Below are positions 10,445-29,958 of a stretch of DNA of 64,000 nucleotides, piece by piece; position 1 is the first letter of the stretch, and every line of letters starts with the position of its first letter. The stretch covers positions 2,666,001 to 2,730,000 of the forward strand of contig NZ_CP103289.1 in assembly GCF_024757985.1 (NCBI RefSeq). Reading direction: 5' to 3'. The DNA is from Cellulomonas sp. NS3 (GTDB lineage: Bacteria > Actinomycetota > Actinomycetes > Actinomycetales > Cellulomonadaceae). The notes under the pieces were generated by a model. The model had not been told where the DNA came from, ran no database searches, and saw nothing but the letters and a program-made list of their open reading frames with translations. The translations under genes were made by a program, and so were the position numbers.

Positions 10445-13400
10445 GCAGGGAGAGAACCAACGACGCCGACCTGGCGGCACCGCACCCGCCCCCAGGGCCG
10501 CGTGCTCGTCGCGCTCGTCGTCCTCGCGGCACTGCTCGCCTACGTCCTCCAGGCGGCGGTCGCGCCGCGCGCGGACGCCGCGACCGTCGGGGCCGGCAGC
10601 TACGCCGAGGGCACGCCCACGGGCGGGGCCGTCCCGACGGAGTGCAACGGCACGCCGGTGACGAACCCCCGGGCGCACGTGACCGCGAACTTCCCCGCGG
10701 GCGCGGTCCCGACGAACGACTGGTGGACGTCGCTGCTGTGGCGCAAGTTCGACTGCGCGTCGATCTCCGAGAACCTCATGGCGCACCCGCTCGCGTTCCA
10801 CGCGTACACGGACGGGCTCGGGGTCAGCTACCCCACCACGGCGAGCATCTCGGGGACCGCGACGGGCGTCGGCGAGTACCACTACAGCTACACCGAGGAC
10901 TTCCGCCTCGGCATCGCGGGCCTGAGCTCCGACGGCAAGGTCGACGGCTACTCCGACTGGACCGTCAGCGAGCTGTGGACCAACGGCAGCAGCAGCCTGC
11001 GCACGACGTTCGGCCACGGCCTGCCCTTCGTCTACGCCACGAAGACCGGCGGGAACGCGACGCTCACGGGCAAGGCCGCCCCGACGGTGTGGAGCAACGC
11101 GAACGGCGCGGTCGGCTACACGATCAACGGGCACGACTACGCGGCGTTCGGCCCCTCGGGCTCGACGTGGACCGTCTCCGGCAGCACGCTGAGCTCCTCG
11201 CTCAACGGCGGCTCGTTCTTCTCGGTCGCCGTGCTGCCCACGTCGTCGGGCAGCTCGAACGCCGACCGGGTCGCGGCCCTCAACGCCTACGCGCCCTACG
11301 CGCACAACCACGTGACCGGCACCAAGGTCTCGTGGTCCTACGACGAGGCCAGCGCGAGGATGACCGCGACCTACGCGTTCACCACGACGGCACGGCAGGG
11401 CTCGGGGACGGGCACCGTCTACGCGCTCTACCCGCACCAGCGCGACCAGCTCAGCGGCGCCACGCCGAGCGCGTACTCCTACGTGTCGCCGCGCGGCCCG
11501 ATGCGCGTCGTGATCGGCAGCTCGCAGTTCCAGACCGTCGCGACCTTCAACGGCGTGCTGCCGCAGCTCGCGAACACGGGCTTCCCGGCCGGCTCCGCGG
11601 ACGCGACGCAGCTCAACGGGTACGTCGAGCAGGTCGCGACGGGTGACCCGTTCGCGGGCTTCGGCGACGACACCTACTGGACCGGCAAGGCGTTCGGCCG
11701 GATCTCCCAGGTTGCGCACATGGCGAACCTCACGGGGAACACCGCCGCGCGGGACCGCCTCGTCAGCGCGATGAAGACGCGCCTGACCGACTGGATGACC
11801 GCCTCGCCCGGCGAGACGACGCGCTCGTTCTGGTACAACCCGGCGTGGGGCACGCTCATCGGCTACCCGGCGTCCTACGGCTCCGACACCGACCTCAACG
11901 ACCACCACTTCCACTACGGCTACTACGTCGTGGGCGCCGCGACCGTCGCGCAGTTCGACCCCGCGTGGGCGGCCGACTCGGCGTACGGCGGCATGGTCAA
12001 CACGGTCATCAAGGACGCCGCGAACTGGGACCGCAGCGACACCCGCTTCCCGTTCCTGCGCGACTTCGACATCTACGCGGGCCACGACTGGGCGGCCGGC
12101 CACGGCGCGTTCGGGGCGGGCAACAACCAGGAGTCGTCGTCGGAGGGCATGAACTTCGCCAGCGGCCTCATCCAGTGGGGTCAGGTGACCGGCAACAAGG
12201 CGGTCCGCGACCTCGGCATCTACCTGTACACGACGCAGGCGTCGGCCATCGAGAACTACTGGTTCGACACCGACGACGAGGCGTTCCCCGCCGCGTTCGG
12301 CCACTCGACGGTCGGCATGGTCTGGGGCGACGGTGGCTCGTACTCGACGTGGTTCAGCGCCGAGCCCGAGATGATCCAGGGCATCAACCTGCTCCCGAGC
12401 ACCGCGGGCCACCTGTACCTGGGCTACGACCCGGCCTACATCACCCGCAACCTCGCCGAGCTCGAACGCAACAACGGCGGCCCCGCGACGGTGTGGAAGG
12501 ACATCATCTGGGCGTTCCAGGCCCTGGCCGACGCCCCGACCGCGCTCGCCCAGTTCCGCGCCCAGGCCGGCTCGTACGCCGTCGAGGAGGGCGAGTCGAA
12601 GGCGCACACCTTCTACTGGCTCAAGAACCTCGCGGGCCTCGGGACGGTCGACCGCTCGGTCACGGCGAACACCCCGCTGCACGCGGTCTTCGTCAAGAAC
12701 GGCGTGCGGACCTACCAGGCGGCCAACATGAGCGGCAGCCCGATCACGGTGCGGTTCTCCAACGGCGTGACGCTCAACGTCCCCGCCCGCTCGGTGACGG
12801 CGTCCACGACGTCGGCGCCGACCGACACCACGGCACCCTCCGTGCCGGGCGGCCTGACCGCGTCGGGCACGACGTCGAGCGCGACCACGCTGTCGTGGAG
12901 CGCGTCGAACGACGGCTCGGGCGGCACGGGCGTCGCGAGCTACGAGGTGCTGCGCGGCGGCTCGGTCGTGGGCACGGTGACCGGGACGACGTACACGGCG
13001 ACCGGGCTGTCCCCCGCGACGGCGTACAGCTTCACCGTGCGCGCGGTCGACGGGGCCGGGAACCGCTCGGCCGCGAGCAACGCGGTCGCGGTGACGACGA
13101 GCCCGTCCTCGGGCGGTGACACCACGGCGCCGTCGGTCCCCTCGGGCCTCGCGGCCTCGGGCACGACCGCCTCGGCGACGACGCTCGCGTGGAACGCCTC
13201 GACCGACGCCGTCGGCGTCACCGGGTACGACGTGCTCCGGAACGGCTCGGTGATCGGCTCGACCGCGAGCCGGACGTTCACCGTGACGGGCCTGTCCCCC
13301 GCGACCGCCTACGCGTTCGCGGTCCGGGCCTACGACGCGGCCGGCAACCGGTCCGCCGCGAGCGCCGCGGTGAACGTGACGACCGCGTCGTCGAGCACGG

Positions 13401-13810
13401 GCGTGGACGCCACGTCCCGCATCCAGGCCGAGGCTTACAGCGGGATGGTCGGCGTGCAGAAGGAGGCGACGCAGGACGTCGACGGCGGCGAGAACATCGC
13501 GTGGATCGCGAACGGCGACCACGTCCGCTTCGACAACGTCAACTTCGGGACGACGCCGCGCGGCACCTTCAGCGCACGGGTCGCCTCCGGGGCGGGCGGG
13601 TCGATCAGCGGGCTCGTCAACGTGCGGCTCGGCAGCGCGACCGCGCCGCCGATCGGCAGCTTCGCGGTCGGCAACACCGGCGGCTGGCAGTCGTGGCGCA
13701 CGATCCCGGCCAACATCCAGCCGACGACCGGCGTGCACACCGTGTACCTGACGTTCGAGTCCGGCCAGCCGGCCGACTTCCTCAACGTCAACTGGTTCAC
13801 GTTCCGCTAG
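10439..13810 (+). CDS. Secreted GH81 endo-1,3-beta-glucanase with two FN3 and a CBM6
   Basis: 1123 aa, ATG start with GGGAG 8 nt upstream. It has a signal peptide (Arg-rich start, hydrophobic core VLVALVVLAALLAYVL, end near ADA-AT). The GH81 catalytic region (about 45-760) is marked by GHDWAAGHGAFG (about 548) and the QESSSEG box (Glu565, Glu569) that carries the acidic active-site residues. Two fibronectin type III modules follow (about 796-885 and 894-983, each starting DTTAPSVP). A C-terminal CBM6 comes last (about 990-1123, RIQAEAYSG to NVNWFTFR). It hydrolyses laminarin or fungal beta-1,3-glucan outside the cell. A LacI gene lies convergent at 13991. Confidence 0.95.
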   Translation: MSAGREPTTPTWRHRTRPQGRVLVALVVLAALLAYVLQAAVAPRADAATVGAGSYAEGTPTGGAVPTECNGTPVTNPRAHVTANFPAGAVPTNDWWTSLLWRKFDCASISENLMAHPLAFHAYTDGLGVSYPTTASISGTATGVGEYHYSYTEDFRLGIAGLSSDGKVDGYSDWTVSELWTNGSSSLRTTFGHGLPFVYATKTGGNATLTGKAAPTVWSNANGAVGYTINGHDYAAFGPSGSTWTVSGSTLSSSLNGGSFFSVAVLPTSSGSSNADRVAALNAYAPYAHNHVTGTKVSWSYDEASARMTATYAFTTTARQGSGTGTVYALYPHQRDQLSGATPSAYSYVSPRGPMRVVIGSSQFQTVATFNGVLPQLANTGFPAGSADATQLNGYVEQVATGDPFAGFGDDTYWTGKAFGRISQVAHMANLTGNTAARDRLVSAMKTRLTDWMTASPGETTRSFWYNPAWGTLIGYPASYGSDTDLNDHHFHYGYYVVGAATVAQFDPAWAADSAYGGMVNTVIKDAANWDRSDTRFPFLRDFDIYAGHDWAAGHGAFGAGNNQESSSEGMNFASGLIQWGQVTGNKAVRDLGIYLYTTQASAIENYWFDTDDEAFPAAFGHSTVGMVWGDGGSYSTWFSAEPEMIQGINLLPSTAGHLYLGYDPAYITRNLAELERNNGGPATVWKDIIWAFQALADAPTALAQFRAQAGSYAVEEGESKAHTFYWLKNLAGLGTVDRSVTANTPLHAVFVKNGVRTYQAANMSGSPITVRFSNGVTLNVPARSVTASTTSAPTDTTAPSVPGGLTASGTTSSATTLSWSASNDGSGGTGVASYEVLRGGSVVGTVTGTTYTATGLSPATAYSFTVRAVDGAGNRSAASNAVAVTTSPSSGGDTTAPSVPSGLAASGTTASATTLAWNASTDAVGVTGYDVLRNGSVIGSTASRTFTVTGLSPATAYAFAVRAYDAAGNRSAASAAVNVTTASSSTGVDATSRIQAEAYSGMVGVQKEATQDVDGGENIAWIANGDHVRFDNVNFGTTPRGTFSARVASGAGGSISGLVNVRLGSATAPPIGSFAVGNTGGWQSWRTIPANIQPTTGVHTVYLTFESGQPADFLNVNWFTFR

Positions 13811-13990: not shown

Positions 13991-14977
13991 TCACGTCGAG
14001 GCGCGCTGCACCACGTGGAAGAGGTCGTCCGGCGCCCGCAGCGACACGCTCGAGCCGTCGAGGGCCGCGAGCACGGCGCGCGTGAGGTGCTCGGCCTGCG
14101 CGTCCGTCGCCTGCCACACCGTCGTGAGCGCCGGCGCCGCGAGCCCGGCCGCGGGGATGTCGTCCACCCCGATCACCGCGACCTCCTCGGGGATCCGCAG
14201 ACCCTCCGCGCGCAGGGCCGCGAGGACCGCGAGCGCGACCTCGTCGTTGTACGCGACCACGCCCGTGACCGGCTCGGGCCCCGCCCGCCAGGCGCGCACC
14301 GCGGCGGTCGCGGACGCGACGTCGAGCTCGACCGCGTGCGGCTGCGGCTCCGGCAGCCCGTGGGCCTCGCACGCGAGCCGCGCACCGGCGAGCCGCCGGT
14401 CGGCGAACGCGGCGAGGCGCTCGTCGGCCGGCGCGGCGTACCCGAGCACGCGGTGCCCCCGCCCGGCGAGGTGCTCGACCTGCAGCCGGCCGATCCCCGT
14501 CTGCGGCACCGAGAAGCTCTCGGGGTGCGGGTCCTCGTCGAGCGAGCTCGTGAGCACCTGGATCCCGGCGCGGCGCATCGCCTGCTCCTCGTCGTCCGTG
14601 AACGCCGTGAGCCCGACGACCGCGCGCGGGGTCACGGCGCGCCACAGCTCGCCGATGGGCCGGCGACCGCGGTCGTGGTGCACGAGCATCGACAGCCCCC
14701 GGTCGGCGAGCTCGCTCGCGAGGTGGTCGAGCAGCGTGTCGATGACCGGGCCGACCGGCCAGTTCGGCAGGACGCAGAGCACGAGGTCGCTGCGGCCCAT
14801 GCGCAGCGCGCGGCCCGCGACCGACGGGGTGTAGCCGAGGCGCGCGGCCGCGTCGCGGACCCGCTTGCGCGTCGCCTCGGGGATCGCCACGTCGGGGCGG
14901 GCGTTGAGGACGTAGCTCACGGTCGTCCGAGACACGCCGCTCTCGCGCGCCACATCGGCACCGGTGACGCCTGGCAC
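13991..14977 (-). CDS. LacI-family transcriptional regulator
   Basis: 328 aa from GTG 14977 with AGGAGG 5-6 nt upstream. The N-terminal LacI helix-turn-helix is clear: VTGADVARESGVSRTTVSYVLNARPDV, with hinge region RVRDAAARLGYTPSVAGRALR (residues 4-58). A periplasmic-binding-protein-like sensor domain follows, ending with the family signature VAVIGVDDIPAAGLAAPALTTV. It probably binds a sugar or glycan oligomer. Its position beside the GH81 glucanase suggests it controls that gene. The palindromes at 10429-10444 and 4968-4981 are candidate sites in the window. Confidence 0.92.
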   Translation of the reverse strand: MPGVTGADVARESGVSRTTVSYVLNARPDVAIPEATRKRVRDAAARLGYTPSVAGRALRMGRSDLVLCVLPNWPVGPVIDTLLDHLASELADRGLSMLVHHDRGRRPIGELWRAVTPRAVVGLTAFTDDEEQAMRRAGIQVLTSSLDEDPHPESFSVPQTGIGRLQVEHLAGRGHRVLGYAAPADERLAAFADRRLAGARLACEAHGLPEPQPHAVELDVASATAAVRAWRAGPEPVTGVVAYNDEVALAVLAALRAEGLRIPEEVAVIGVDDIPAAGLAAPALTTVWQATDAQAEHLTRAVLAALDGSSVSLRAPDDLFHVVQRAST

Positions 14978-19395: not shown

Positions 19396-19493
19396 GAGCA
19401 CCCGAGGGCCGGGACGAGCTGGGACGAACCGGGCGGACCGCACCTTCGGGCGGAGCCTCGCCAGGGCCCGGGGCCTCCCGCACAATGGTCCGG

Positions 19494-21155
19494 GTGAACC
19501 CGTCCTCCGGGGTCTCGACCACGACCGGGGCACCGGCCCGCCCGTTCGCGGTGCTCGTGGTCGGCACGCGCAACGTGTGCCGCTCACCCGCCGCCGAGCG
19601 GCTCCTGCGCGCGCGGCTCGGCGAGCACGGTGACGTCGTGATCCTGAGCGCGGGGACGGAGGCGACGGCCGACGGTGACCTGCCCGCACCGCTCGTCGAG
19701 CACCTCGGCTCCGTGGGCGCGGACGCGGACGCGCACGAGGCGCGCGAGCTCGACCCGGAGCTCGTGCGCTCGGCGGACGTCGTCCTGACCGCGACGCGGC
19801 AGGAGCGCGCCGCGGTCGTGCGCACAGTGCCCTCGGCCATCCGGCGCACGTTCACGCTGCGGGAGCTCGCCCGCGTGGCGCGTGCCCTGGGTCCGGAGGT
19901 CCTCCCCGAGGGCGACGTCGCGGGACGCCTGTCCGCGCTCGTCGACGCCGCGGCCCGGCACCGCACGCCGACCTCTCCGCGCGCCGCCGGCGACGACGAC
20001 CTGCTCGACCCCTACGGCCGCGACGAGGCCGCGTACGCGACCGCGTTCGACCAGGTGCTCGCCGCGGTCGAGGGCATCGCGGAGACGGTCCGCCCCGAGC
20101 TCGCCGCCGAGCACCCCGCCCCGGGGCACGACGAGCGCCCGCTGCCGGCCGTGCGCGCCGGGCGGAGCGTCCTGCGGACCGTCGCCCTCGCCGCCCTCGT
20201 GTCCCTGCTGCTGCTCGTCGTCGCGGGGACGACCGGCGCCCTCGTCGCGGTCGACCGCCTGGACAGCCGGGTCCAGCGCTTCCCGGACCCGTTCGCGGAC
20301 CTTCCCACGCGTCCGCCGGCGCCCGCTCCCCCGGCCGCGGGCTCGACCACCGAGCCGGCGCTCACGGTCCTCGTGCTCGGCGCCAGCGCGGACGACGCGG
20401 GTGGGGACGGCGCGAGTGGGGACGCCGCCGGCCCGGGCGGCGCCGCCGGGACGGACGTCGTGCTGCTCGCCCACGTCGCCGCGGACCGCCGCAGCGCGCA
20501 GGTCGTCGCGCTCCCCCCGGACCTCCACGTCGGGGTCCCGGGCTCCGAGCCCGCACCGCTGCGCTCGGCGGCCGCGCTCGGCGGGCCCCCGGGTGCGGTG
20601 CAGGCCGTCGAACAGCTCACGGGCGTGCGCGTCGACCACGTCGCGCTGACCGACGCCGAGACCTTCGCGCGGGTCACCGAGACGCTCGGCGGGGTCGACC
20701 TCGACGTGACGGACGACGTCGTGGTCCGCGGCCGCGTCGCGGTCCCGACCGGCCGGCACCGGCTGACCGGCGGCCTCGCCCTCGCGTGGATGCAGGACAC
20801 CGACGACGACGCCGCCCGGGCCGAGCGCGGGCAGCTCTGGCTGCGCGCGATCCTCGACCGGCTCGGCCACGACGACGTCCGCTCCGACCCGACGACGTGG
20901 CTCGCGCTGCTCGACGTCCTGTCGGGCTCGGTGGCGGTCGACGAGGGCCTCGACCGCGGCGCGATGCTGGGCCTGCTCACGAGCCTGCGCACGCTGCGAC
21001 CCGGCGACGTCCAGGTGGTCACGGCCCCGACGACGGCCGGCACCGCCGCGGACGGCTCCCCGACCGTGGTGCCGGACCCCGGCCCGTTCGCCGCACTCAT
21101 GGACGCGCTGCGCTCCGACACCCTCGACGAGCACCTGGCCGGGGCACCGGGCTGA
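19494..21155 (+). CDS. Fusion of degenerate LMW tyrosine-phosphatase fold, membrane helix and LCP domain
   Basis: 553 aa from GTG 19494; ATG 19485 is an in-frame alternative. Residues 17-200 follow the low-molecular-weight protein tyrosine phosphatase fold. However, the P-loop reads VVGTRNVCRSPAAE where the family has VCxGNxCRSPxAE: the nucleophilic Cys is Gly24 and the loop Gly is Arg26. The general-acid loop DPY (172-174) is kept. A membrane helix spans about 229-252. Residues about 289-553 match LytR-CpsA-Psr proteins, but the PRD motif is PPD (341-343) and the Arg-rich YVRxR motif is WMQDT (432-436). The outer domain is extracellular. Both enzymes look inactive, suggesting a binding or sensing role in wall-polymer attachment. 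A CACAAT hexamer 7 nt upstream hints at a leaderless start. Confidence 0.85.
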   Translation: MNPSSGVSTTTGAPARPFAVLVVGTRNVCRSPAAERLLRARLGEHGDVVILSAGTEATADGDLPAPLVEHLGSVGADADAHEARELDPELVRSADVVLTATRQERAAVVRTVPSAIRRTFTLRELARVARALGPEVLPEGDVAGRLSALVDAAARHRTPTSPRAAGDDDLLDPYGRDEAAYATAFDQVLAAVEGIAETVRPELAAEHPAPGHDERPLPAVRAGRSVLRTVALAALVSLLLLVVAGTTGALVAVDRLDSRVQRFPDPFADLPTRPPAPAPPAAGSTTEPALTVLVLGASADDAGGDGASGDAAGPGGAAGTDVVLLAHVAADRRSAQVVALPPDLHVGVPGSEPAPLRSAAALGGPPGAVQAVEQLTGVRVDHVALTDAETFARVTETLGGVDLDVTDDVVVRGRVAVPTGRHRLTGGLALAWMQDTDDDAARAERGQLWLRAILDRLGHDDVRSDPTTWLALLDVLSGSVAVDEGLDRGAMLGLLTSLRTLRPGDVQVVTAPTTAGTAADGSPTVVPDPGPFAALMDALRSDTLDEHLAGAPG

Positions 21156-28162: not shown

Positions 28163-29116
28163 TCAGGAGTGCAGGGGCGAGTCCAGGCCGACACTGAACC
28201 GCACGGTGTAGCCGTGCCGGTCGGTCCTGTGGTGCAGGTCGGCGATCAGCTGGTGCAGGATCCACATGCCGCGCCCTGACGGGCTGTCGAGCGGGGGTGC
28301 GCACAGCCCGACGAGCGGGTGCGGGCCCTGGCCCGAGTCGCTGACCGTGACCGTGAGTCGTCCACCGGCCGTCCACACCTTCACCGACACGGGCACGCGA
28401 CCGTGCCGGAAGCCGTTCGTCACCGTCTCGCTGACCGCGAGCACGGCGGCCTGGATCGCCGCCGGGGGCAGCCCCGCTGCGGTTCCGAGCTCGTGCACCG
28501 CTCGTCGCGCCGCGTGAGCCGACGGATCGTGCAACGCGAGCTGCGGCGGGGTCGCCTCGATCGGGTGCGGGGGCAGGTCGAGGTAGCCGCCGATGTGCTC
28601 GTCGAGGTCGGCGAACCGTCCGCTGGGACGCCGACCGGCACCGTCGAGGACGTGCTCGTGGCTCGCCGACAGGTCCTCGAGCATCGTGTGGTCGAGCCGC
28701 TCGGTGTCGTACGCGCAGGTGCCCAGCACGCGGTACGGGGCCAGCACGTAGTTCGCGGCGGCCTCGTACCGTCGCCACTCCTGCCACTGGAGCTCGCTCA
28801 TGGCCGGCATCTGGTTGACGACCCGGACCCGGGACCGCGTCGCGTCGAGCGTGGTGAGGACCTGCTGGAACCGGTGGAGGTCACGACCGGGAAAGCGCTC
28901 GCGCCCCGCCTGCGGCACCGCACGGACACCGGCGACGTCCGGGACCGCGGCGAGCATCGCGTCCACGAACGCCGGCTCCCCGACCACCAGGATCTCGTCG
29001 CCCGCCGCGGCGCCGTCGCGCACGAACGGCACCATCAGGTCGACGAGCGCCTCCGGGCCGGCGTGCAGCACCAGCTCGTGCTCGAAGCTGCGTCCGGGGG
29101 ACGTCGTGGAGGTCAT
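28163..29116 (-). CDS. MEDS-domain anti-sigma kinase (RsbA/RsbW-like)
   Basis: 317 aa from ATG 29116. The N-terminal MEDS/DcmR-like sensory domain (about 10-170) includes HELVLHAGPEALVDLMVPFVRDGAAAGDEILVV, then FPGRDLHRFQQVLTTL. The C-terminal GHKL ATPase domain (about 200-317) has AAVLAVSETVTNGFRHG (N-box), VTVSDSGQGP and SGRGMWILHQL. This architecture is that of the RsbA-type anti-sigma regulators of actinobacteria. It would bind a sigma factor and phosphorylate a STAS antagonist. It overlaps by ATGA the upstream MEDS-STAS gene, so sensor, antagonist and kinase are one unit. Confidence 0.92.
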   Translation of the reverse strand: MTSTTSPGRSFEHELVLHAGPEALVDLMVPFVRDGAAAGDEILVVGEPAFVDAMLAAVPDVAGVRAVPQAGRERFPGRDLHRFQQVLTTLDATRSRVRVVNQMPAMSELQWQEWRRYEAAANYVLAPYRVLGTCAYDTERLDHTMLEDLSASHEHVLDGAGRRPSGRFADLDEHIGGYLDLPPHPIEATPPQLALHDPSAHAARRAVHELGTAAGLPPAAIQAAVLAVSETVTNGFRHGRVPVSVKVWTAGGRLTVTVSDSGQGPHPLVGLCAPPLDSPSGRGMWILHQLIADLHHRTDRHGYTVRFSVGLDSPLHS

Positions 29117-29958
29117 GACACCGCCCTCGTGACGACGTTCCGGAGTCCGAGCGTGGCGGCGAGCCAGCAGGTCAGCGGCTCGGCGTCCACCAGCGTCACG
29201 GAGACGTCCAGGGACCGGGCGGCCCGGTCGAGCGCGAGGAGGCCGGCGTGGTCGATGAACCGCAGCTCCGCGACGCTCACGGTCGTACGGGCGCGGAGCT
29301 CCGGCCCGATCGTCAGCAGCGCGTCGTACAGGGCGTCGGCCGACGCGACGTCGACGTCGCCGACGAGCGCGAGCCCGGCGCGGGCGTCCGCGCGCAGGCG
29401 GAACGGCGACAGGGCACCGCGCGTGAGCGCGTGCACGCGGGCGGCCTCGGCCACGGCTCGGTCGCCGAGGTCGTCGACGTCGTACCCGCAGAGCACGATC
29501 AGCGGGTTGTCGAGCGCGTACCGGTCGATGAGGTGCTCGGACCGGATCCAGTGCCGGCGCCCGTCGGGGTCCCGGACCAGGTCGTCGACGTCCGTGAACA
29601 GCCGCAGGCCGGTGAACCCGTCCTCCACCGCGCCACGGGTCATGCGGTCGACCTGCAGCAGGGCACTGCTCGACAGCAGCGCGCTGCTCGCGCCGGTCTG
29701 CGCCGACGGGGCCGTGAGCTCCGTGCGCACGGGCCGCCGGACGCCCTCCGGGCGGCCGACCTCCGCGACGTCCGACACGGTCGCGTACCCCAGGCTCTGT
29801 GACGTCACCTTCAGGAACGCGACGCGCTCGCGGCATCCGAGGCCCTCCGCGACGTACGCGCGCGCCGCCTCGACGTCCTCCTCGATGCCGTGGAACGGCC
29901 AGCACACGTGGTCCCCAGGCGAGCGCCCGGTCACGGACGTGACCACCCGCTGCGACAT
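29113..29958 (-). CDS. MEDS-STAS anti-anti-sigma factor
   Basis: 281 aa, ATG 29958 with a GGGGG ribosome-like site. The MEDS domain (residues about 10-170) starts PGDHVCWPFHGIEEDVEAARAYVAEGL, typical of DcmR-like sensors. The STAS domain follows (about 185-281): LALVGDVDVASADALYDALL and VSVAELRFIDHAGLLALDRAARSL. In classic antagonists the phospho-accepting Ser lies in a DSSG-type motif; here the position reads DHAG, so the usual Ser is missing and a phosphorylation switch is doubtful. It is translated just before the MEDS-kinase, with 4-bp overlap. Confidence 0.88.
   Translation of the reverse strand: MSQRVVTSVTGRSPGDHVCWPFHGIEEDVEAARAYVAEGLGCRERVAFLKVTSQSLGYATVSDVAEVGRPEGVRRPVRTELTAPSAQTGASSALLSSSALLQVDRMTRGAVEDGFTGLRLFTDVDDLVRDPDGRRHWIRSEHLIDRYALDNPLIVLCGYDVDDLGDRAVAEAARVHALTRGALSPFRLRADARAGLALVGDVDVASADALYDALLTIGPELRARTTVSVAELRFIDHAGLLALDRAARSLDVSVTLVDAEPLTCWLAATLGLRNVVTRAVS

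Follow-up and report, generated by a model that had tools for sequence, protein, structure and literature searches.

A fused LMW-PTP-like and LCP-like membrane protein of Cellulomonas and Actinotalea with key catalytic residues replaced in both domains: a candidate regulator of surface-glycopolymer assembly

The window, that is, the whole stretch of 64,000 nucleotides from Cellulomonas sp. NS3 that was analyzed, contains on its plus strand an open frame of 553 amino acids with a GTG start (19494-21155). Its product combines a domain resembling low-molecular-weight tyrosine phosphatases (LMW-PTPs), a predicted membrane helix and an LCP-like domain. The features of the locus, in window coordinates, are the following:

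19481..19486, plus strand: CACAAT, a -10-like box that ends 7 nt before the GTG (comparison of orthologues)
19494..21155, plus strand: LMW-PTP-like/TM/LCP-like fusion protein (open frame, Pfam, alignment)
19539..20099, plus strand: LMW-PTP-like domain, residues 16-202, predicted cytosolic (PF01451, Wzb fold; predicted topology)
19560..19586, plus strand: P-loop VGTRNVCRS, with Gly24 (codon 19563-19565) where the nucleophile Cys would stand (alignment)
20178..20264, plus strand: single predicted membrane helix, residues 229-257 (AlphaFold2, pLDDT <50; predicted topology)
20358..21128, plus strand: LCP-like domain, residues 289-545, predicted extracytoplasmic (PF03816, TagT fold; predicted topology)
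20517..20519, plus strand: Pro342, replacing the catalytic Arg (TagT R118, A. oris LcpA R149) (alignment)
20562..20564, plus strand: Arg357, at the Asn of the K-x-N motif (alignment)
20793..20801, plus strand: residues 434-436 (Q-D-T), replacing R-x-R (TagT R217/R219) (alignment)

The first-pass annotation had assigned an LMW-PTP fold, a membrane helix and an LCP domain to this single frame, and the Pfam search, the AlphaFold2 model and the fold matches bear this out. LMWPc (PF01451) was found at residues 20-124 with 54.9 bits (cut-off 23.2), LytR_cpsA_psr (PF03816) at residues 320-457 with 73.7 bits, above the curated cut-off, and the NCBIfam LCP model TIGR00350 scored 72.3 bits (cut-off 62.3). 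Genome-wide there are five matches to LMWPc and four to LCP, the fused protein being counted in both. The AlphaFold2 model of the window protein, built on a nine-row alignment of this protein and eight orthologues, has a mean pLDDT of 71.2 and a pTM of 0.51 and consists of two folded domains with a low-confidence helix at residues 229-257. When this predicted structure was compared by VIA-align, residues 16-200 matched Escherichia coli Wzb with Z 20.1 (LMW-PTP structures score Z 17.7-20.1 among the matches listed) and residues 260-544 matched TagT with Z 22.1. Since the residues N-terminal to the helix are rich in arginine, the phosphatase-like domain is predicted to lie inside and the LCP-like domain outside. 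A chance open frame is ruled out by the Pfam and fold matches and by the pattern of selection (see below).

A box reading CACAAT, CACACT, CAGAAT or CAGACT lies 6-7 nt 5' of an in-frame start codon in all 14 distinct fused orthologues, and this supports GTG at 19494 as the true start of the fused gene. The pattern was picked post hoc, after the sequences had been viewed; about 0.0005 such boxes per seven positions are expected in the window, and none precedes any of the 46 other called window genes of at least 450 bases, whose starts are only roughly called. The location of the box suggests a promoter that would yield a leaderless transcript. A second conserved upstream block, ATAGCGGGC, is seen near the expected -35 location in seven of the 14 orthologues (L042, L044, L045, L046, L047, L049 and L053), in part in L041, and not in the window gene. 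A regulon sharing the block and the box was considered and rejected: in genomes G178 and G083 the strict pattern has a single occurrence per genome, at the fused gene, and it is absent from G179 and from the genome of strain NS3 (G000).

The neighbors of the fused gene in the window encode a 5'-nucleotidase and a GGDEF protein. The window also contains a gene for a GH81-type glycosyl hydrolase with fn3 and CBM6 domains (10502-13810, plus strand), beside which lies that of a LacI-type regulator (13991-14953, minus strand), and two adjoining genes for MEDS-domain proteins that overlap by four bases (28163-29958, minus strand), a histidine-kinase-like ATPase domain being present in one and a weak STAS-like match, below the cut-off, in the other.

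Among the matches listed, 200 genomes of its family yielded the full-length fused protein in nine, that of strain NS3 included, and it is present in two of seven genomes of its own genus; with so patchy a distribution, most relatives do without it. A scan of 84,980 species genomes, which used LCP-based patterns and could therefore miss diverged fusions, yielded 115 relatives, and the best 80 of them comprise 14 fused and 66 other proteins. These 14 come from 13 named genomes; Actinotalea solisilvae has two copies, and the rest belong to Cellulomonas. The match of the 66 others is confined to the part from residue 200 on, over the helix and the LCP domain. At E <= 1e-75, a cut-off that could miss diverged fusions, four of 396 genomes of the order match: two carry the fused protein, both belonging to the same family, and two carry tandem pairs (G228 and G426), so that no fused copy was seen outside the family among these genomes. 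Throughout, the 14 distinct fused orthologues are those of strain NS3 and of the 13 named Cellulomonas and Actinotalea genomes. The second A. solisilvae copy (L050) is excluded from all counts of 14 and from the trees, and the duplicates L054-L056 are excluded from the trees and from the comparison of residue conservation. The C. cellasea orthologue shares 84-86% of its residues with the window protein, and the other fused proteins share 52-60%, so that strain NS3 is probably close to C. cellasea.

The LCP tree places the fused sequences in one group with support 100/100, whose stem, 1.15 changes per site long, branches off among the family's unfused LCPs. In the PTP tree they also group together, with 100/99 when distant LMW-PTPs are left out and 88/78 when they are included, these being rough values from a bootstrap that had not settled. 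We read this history as probably one fusion, a burst of change and then constraint.

In the phosphatase-like domain, the nucleophile position is occupied by Gly in 14/14 distinct fused proteins and by Cys in 33/33 unfused LMW-PTPs of the family, all of which have the loop VCTGN[IV]CRS (13 of them are taken from loci and 20 were picked, non-randomly, from the better matches, covering 32 genomes in total). A C-x5-R P-loop with its nucleophile Cys is thus missing from the fused proteins. The window protein does have Gly24 for the Cys, Arg26 for the loop Gly and a DPY acid loop, as first described, but as features of the family only part of this stands: the loop Gly is lost in all 14 with six different residues in its place, Arg26 being present in two, and the Tyr of DPY is likewise present in two. 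The general-acid Asp172 is kept in 13, including the window protein, and is Phe in C. edaphi. The P-loop Arg is kept in ten proteins and replaced by Pro in three and by Asp in one; given these four losses, the conserved function of the fused family is probably not phosphotyrosine binding. Conserved and common to active LMW-PTPs are, among others, R118-T119-F120-T121 and D168-D169 of the fused protein, and its acidic DD-x-x-DP segment is retained. Compared with Wzb-type LMW-PTPs (PF01451), the fused proteins share the fold, Asn27 and Ser31 of the P-loop and the Asp-Pro of the acid loop; they differ in the nucleophile and the loop Gly (14/14 each), in the P-loop Arg (4/14) and in having a membrane helix and an LCP domain in addition.

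Positions of the LCP domain were numbered on TagT, with the offset checked on the 3mej alignment, and compared with 26 distinct unfused LCPs (23 close relatives and three further LCPs of the same genome). At the position of the catalytic R118, Pro stands in 14/14 fused proteins and Arg in 26/26 unfused ones; at R219, the fused proteins have T, D, S, A or G (14/14) and the unfused ones Arg (26/26). The R227 position (A. oris R266; Arg442 here) is Arg in 13/14 and 26/26, respectively, and R217 is Arg in nine of the 14 fused proteins and lost in five. Of the two metal-site aspartates of LCP transferases, D97 (Asp321 here) is kept in 14/14 fused and 26/26 unfused proteins, while D82 (position 298) is S, T or A in all fused ones. 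The K131 position is lost and the position of S. aureus LcpA R99 is changed, in both cases in 14/14. According to PMC6381275, A. oris LcpA requires both R149 and R266 (R118 and R227 of TagT) for glycosylation, and the R149A substitution abolishes its pyrophosphatase activity. One essential LCP arginine is lost and another is kept, and the earlier claim that the phosphate-handling arginines are gone therefore has to be corrected: PRD does read PPD and the YVRxR motif WMQDT, and R118 and R219 are absent throughout, but the claim was overstated, as an essential Arg (R227) and one metal-site Asp (D97) remain.

Homologues that for the most part keep the nucleophile Cys and the LCP arginines would have refuted the first-pass annotation. 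Among the fused ones the Cys was found in 0/14 and Arg at R118 or R219 in 0/14, all unfused relatives examined having these residues, and the annotation thus passed its own check. The losses are present in all 14 distinct orthologues, which excludes a local mutation or a sequencing error, and the replacements Gly24, Pro342 and Arg357 are fixed in 14/14. Because a defining catalytic feature of each known family is missing, we class the fused protein, on the evidence of its residues, as probably neither an active phosphatase nor an active transferase. With the LCP transferases (TagT, Cps2A and A. oris LcpA) it shares the fold and the D97 and R227 positions, and its LCP-like domain, too, is predicted to lie behind a membrane helix; it differs from them at the R118, R219, D82 and K131 positions in all 14 proteins and in the LMW-PTP-like domain, predicted to be cytosolic, that precedes the helix. 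Both LMW-PTP and LCP are known families. Neither an LMW-PTP/LCP fusion nor an LCP pseudoenzyme appears in the titles and abstract openings among the literature matches listed, subscription journals being mostly outside the scope of that search.

The best rival to this classification, which we nevertheless consider improbable, is that only the phosphatase part is a pseudoenzyme and the LCP part has been rewired, Arg357, Arg442 and Asp321 rebuilding a phosphate site with altered transfer or hydrolysis. Arg357 is Arg in 14/14 fused proteins and Asn in 26/26 distinct unfused LCPs. K135 and N137 of S. aureus LcpA align with the K-x-N of the unfused LCPs, so that Arg357 stands at the N137 position; R99, K135 and N137 are placed near candidate acceptor-sugar sites in a review (PMC7831098). 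The nearly invariant Arg at R227 and the invariant Asp at D97 would also suit such a site. On the other hand, the D82, R118, K131, R219 and LcpA R99 positions are changed in every fused protein, and the R118 counterpart is the very residue whose substitution inactivated A. oris LcpA (PMC6381275).

Next to the fused gene there is little that recurs. Apart from the gene itself, no gene family is common to more than four of 15 compared flanks, in a comparison based on rough gene calling that missed or misread the fused gene in three of the 15 loci. Relatives of nine proteins of polysaccharide loci, a kinase and an unfused PTP included, were found neither in flanks of up to 10 kb on either side of the 14 fused loci nor elsewhere in the 64-kb window; the nine queries were drawn from four loci and cover part of such genes. 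By these queries the fused gene is not located with BY-kinase or polysaccharide genes, and operon context was dropped as a clue to function, as the neighbors differ between loci and include no relatives of the polysaccharide-locus proteins.

The intact relatives have other surroundings. In strain NS3, an active-looking LMW-PTP gene lies 3 kb from that of a Wzz/BY-kinase. Besides its Wzz and AAA domains, this kinase carries the Tyr-rich sequence YTYYDY near the C-terminus. The kinase sequence contains EAFRRLR, which we take to be an instance of the E-x2-R-x2-R interface motif. This polysaccharide locus also has, near the kinase and LMW-PTP genes, a sugar transferase gene and a DUF4012 gene:

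G000 C1:3711032-3712753 (L180:7533-9254), minus strand: DUF4012 gene, between the genes of the BY-kinase and the active-looking LMW-PTP
G000 C1:3713044-3713616: gene of the active-looking LMW-PTP

All nine fused-bearing genomes tested contain an unfused LMW-PTP with VCTGN[IV]CRS as well as a relative of this kinase. Positions compared by eye show the kinase and unfused PTP genes no more than 5 kb apart in eight of 14 genomes, among them four of the nine fused-bearing ones; in the other five of the nine the kinase gene was not found within that distance, three of these being cases of different contigs. Genes of close unfused LCPs and LMW-PTPs adjoin in G099, G079, G112 and G146, mostly convergently. 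Of 89 loci of unfused relatives, 23 of which had flanks of 1.5 kb or less, eight contain a PTP in the stretch around the LCP.

Two genomes of another family, G228 and G426 (tandem loci L207 and L208, regions L209 and L210), have a relative of the BY-kinase, an LMW-PTP and an LCP in that order on one strand. The PTP stop codon is followed by six bases and then by the ATG of the LCP gene in the same frame, and the active-site motifs of both proteins are intact. Such tandem PTP-LCP genes occur in two of 24 genomes of that family at E <= 1e-65. In G426, a frame on the opposite strand lies between kinase and PTP and is presumably transposase-like. The tandem genes were rejected as the direct ancestor, since in the trees their domains fall outside the fused group; by analogy they show a possible route, in which loss of a single stop codon could yield such a fusion.

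A comparable set of parts is known from Streptococcus pneumoniae cps2A-D. There, according to PMC12220298, the BY-kinase, the phosphatase and the LCP are separate proteins, cps2A is the first gene of the locus, and the phosphatase CpsB is of the PHP type and not an LMW-PTP. The fused protein likewise brings together a phosphatase and an LCP, which in G228 and G426 have genes of their own next to that of a BY-kinase; unlike the pneumococcal system, it is one chain, has lost key catalytic residues of both enzymes and has no relative of the kinase alongside.

The intact paralogues near the Wzz/BY-kinase and the kinase/PTP/LCP gene rows point to exopolysaccharide control, and these neighborhoods strengthen the tie of LMW-PTP and LCP proteins to polymer export that the first-pass annotation had drawn from other bacteria. 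In such bacteria the BY-kinase is reset by a Wzb-like LMW-PTP, and attachment of the polymer to the wall is the task of an LCP ligase. We propose, giving it about an even chance, that the fused protein is a conserved pseudoenzyme serving as a non-catalytic membrane regulator of surface-glycopolymer assembly; its role as a regulatory scaffold we infer from sequence comparison, which itself shows the domain order, the lost residues, the purifying selection, one tree group and the setting of the intact genes. Against the proposal we count the unconserved flanks, the lack of polysaccharide-locus relatives alongside, the patchy presence and the loss of the P-loop Arg in 4/14.

Several of these points would also fit a protein that has left the exopolysaccharide pathway, its co-opted folds now serving a generic sensor or binding protein of the envelope whose partners are unrelated: the flanks are unconserved and free of relatives of the nine polysaccharide-locus proteins, the gene has its own conserved promoter-like box, and its distribution is patchy. 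We give this reading a small chance, as the kinase relative and the active-looking LMW-PTP are kept in 9/9 tested fused-bearing genomes, and R118-T119-F120-T121 and D168-D169 are conserved as in active LMW-PTPs.

The pattern of selection bears on whether the gene is functional at all. Between the window gene and its C. cellasea orthologue, dN/dS is 0.20 for the whole gene, 0.21 for the PTP part and 0.21 for the LCP part; three other close pairs gave 0.18-0.30, 0.17-0.35 and 0.16-0.22, respectively. Purifying selection holds both domains. The loss of active-site residues in both domains and the patchy presence might be taken to mark a decaying relic of a fusion that has not yet been lost. We disfavor this reading and regard it as very unlikely: ratios of 0.16-0.35 in both domains of four pairs argue against simple decay, none of the 14 distinct sequences contains an internal stop, new residues have become invariant, and the promoter-like box is conserved. 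It is hardly credible that the phosphatase part acts through the P-loop Cys29 retained in the window protein instead of the lost nucleophile, as only six of the 14 fused proteins have Cys at position 29, the others having Gly, Ser or Tyr there.

For the preferred reading, a non-catalytic regulator, we envisage the following course. Two enzymes of the exopolysaccharide-control type, a Wzb-like LMW-PTP and an LCP ligase, would have been joined by a single fusion within or near Cellulomonadaceae; key catalytic residues of both domains had gone by the time the known members separated, and their replacements then became fixed. On the predicted cytosolic side, the pseudo-phosphatase could dock on the BY-kinase and compete with the retained active phosphatase. 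A review (PMC12220298) states that the octamer of the phosphorylated kinase falls apart and that its oligomerization surface is then free to engage the LMW-PTP. Docking of this kind would not need the nucleophile, and the retained acidic DD-x-x-DP segment would be compatible with it. On the predicted outer side, the pseudo-LCP could hold a lipid-linked polymer or an acceptor without transferring it, and the lipid-linked substrate may be held via Arg442. A single membrane-spanning chain would couple the state of the polymer outside to that of the kinase inside.

A more specific form of the proposal, which we hold to be doubtful, is a two-sided sensor: outside, wall acceptor or lipid-linked polymer would be read by the pseudo-LCP; inside, the pseudo-phosphatase would signal by occupying the surface of the BY-kinase on which the phosphatase docks. 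If this is true, two dead enzymes of one pathway would have become a receptor for that pathway.

In summary, two enzyme domains of one pathway type, one predicted inside and the other outside the membrane, have been fused, both were stripped of key catalytic residues in one ancestor, and new residues have become fixed. If the role proposed here is true, the fused protein would offer a direct route to the coupling, in actinobacteria, of the control of polymer synthesis by a tyrosine kinase with the attachment of the polymer outside. The intact kinase-PTP-LCP gene rows, for their part, are a simple setting for studying how BY-kinases and LCP ligases are linked.
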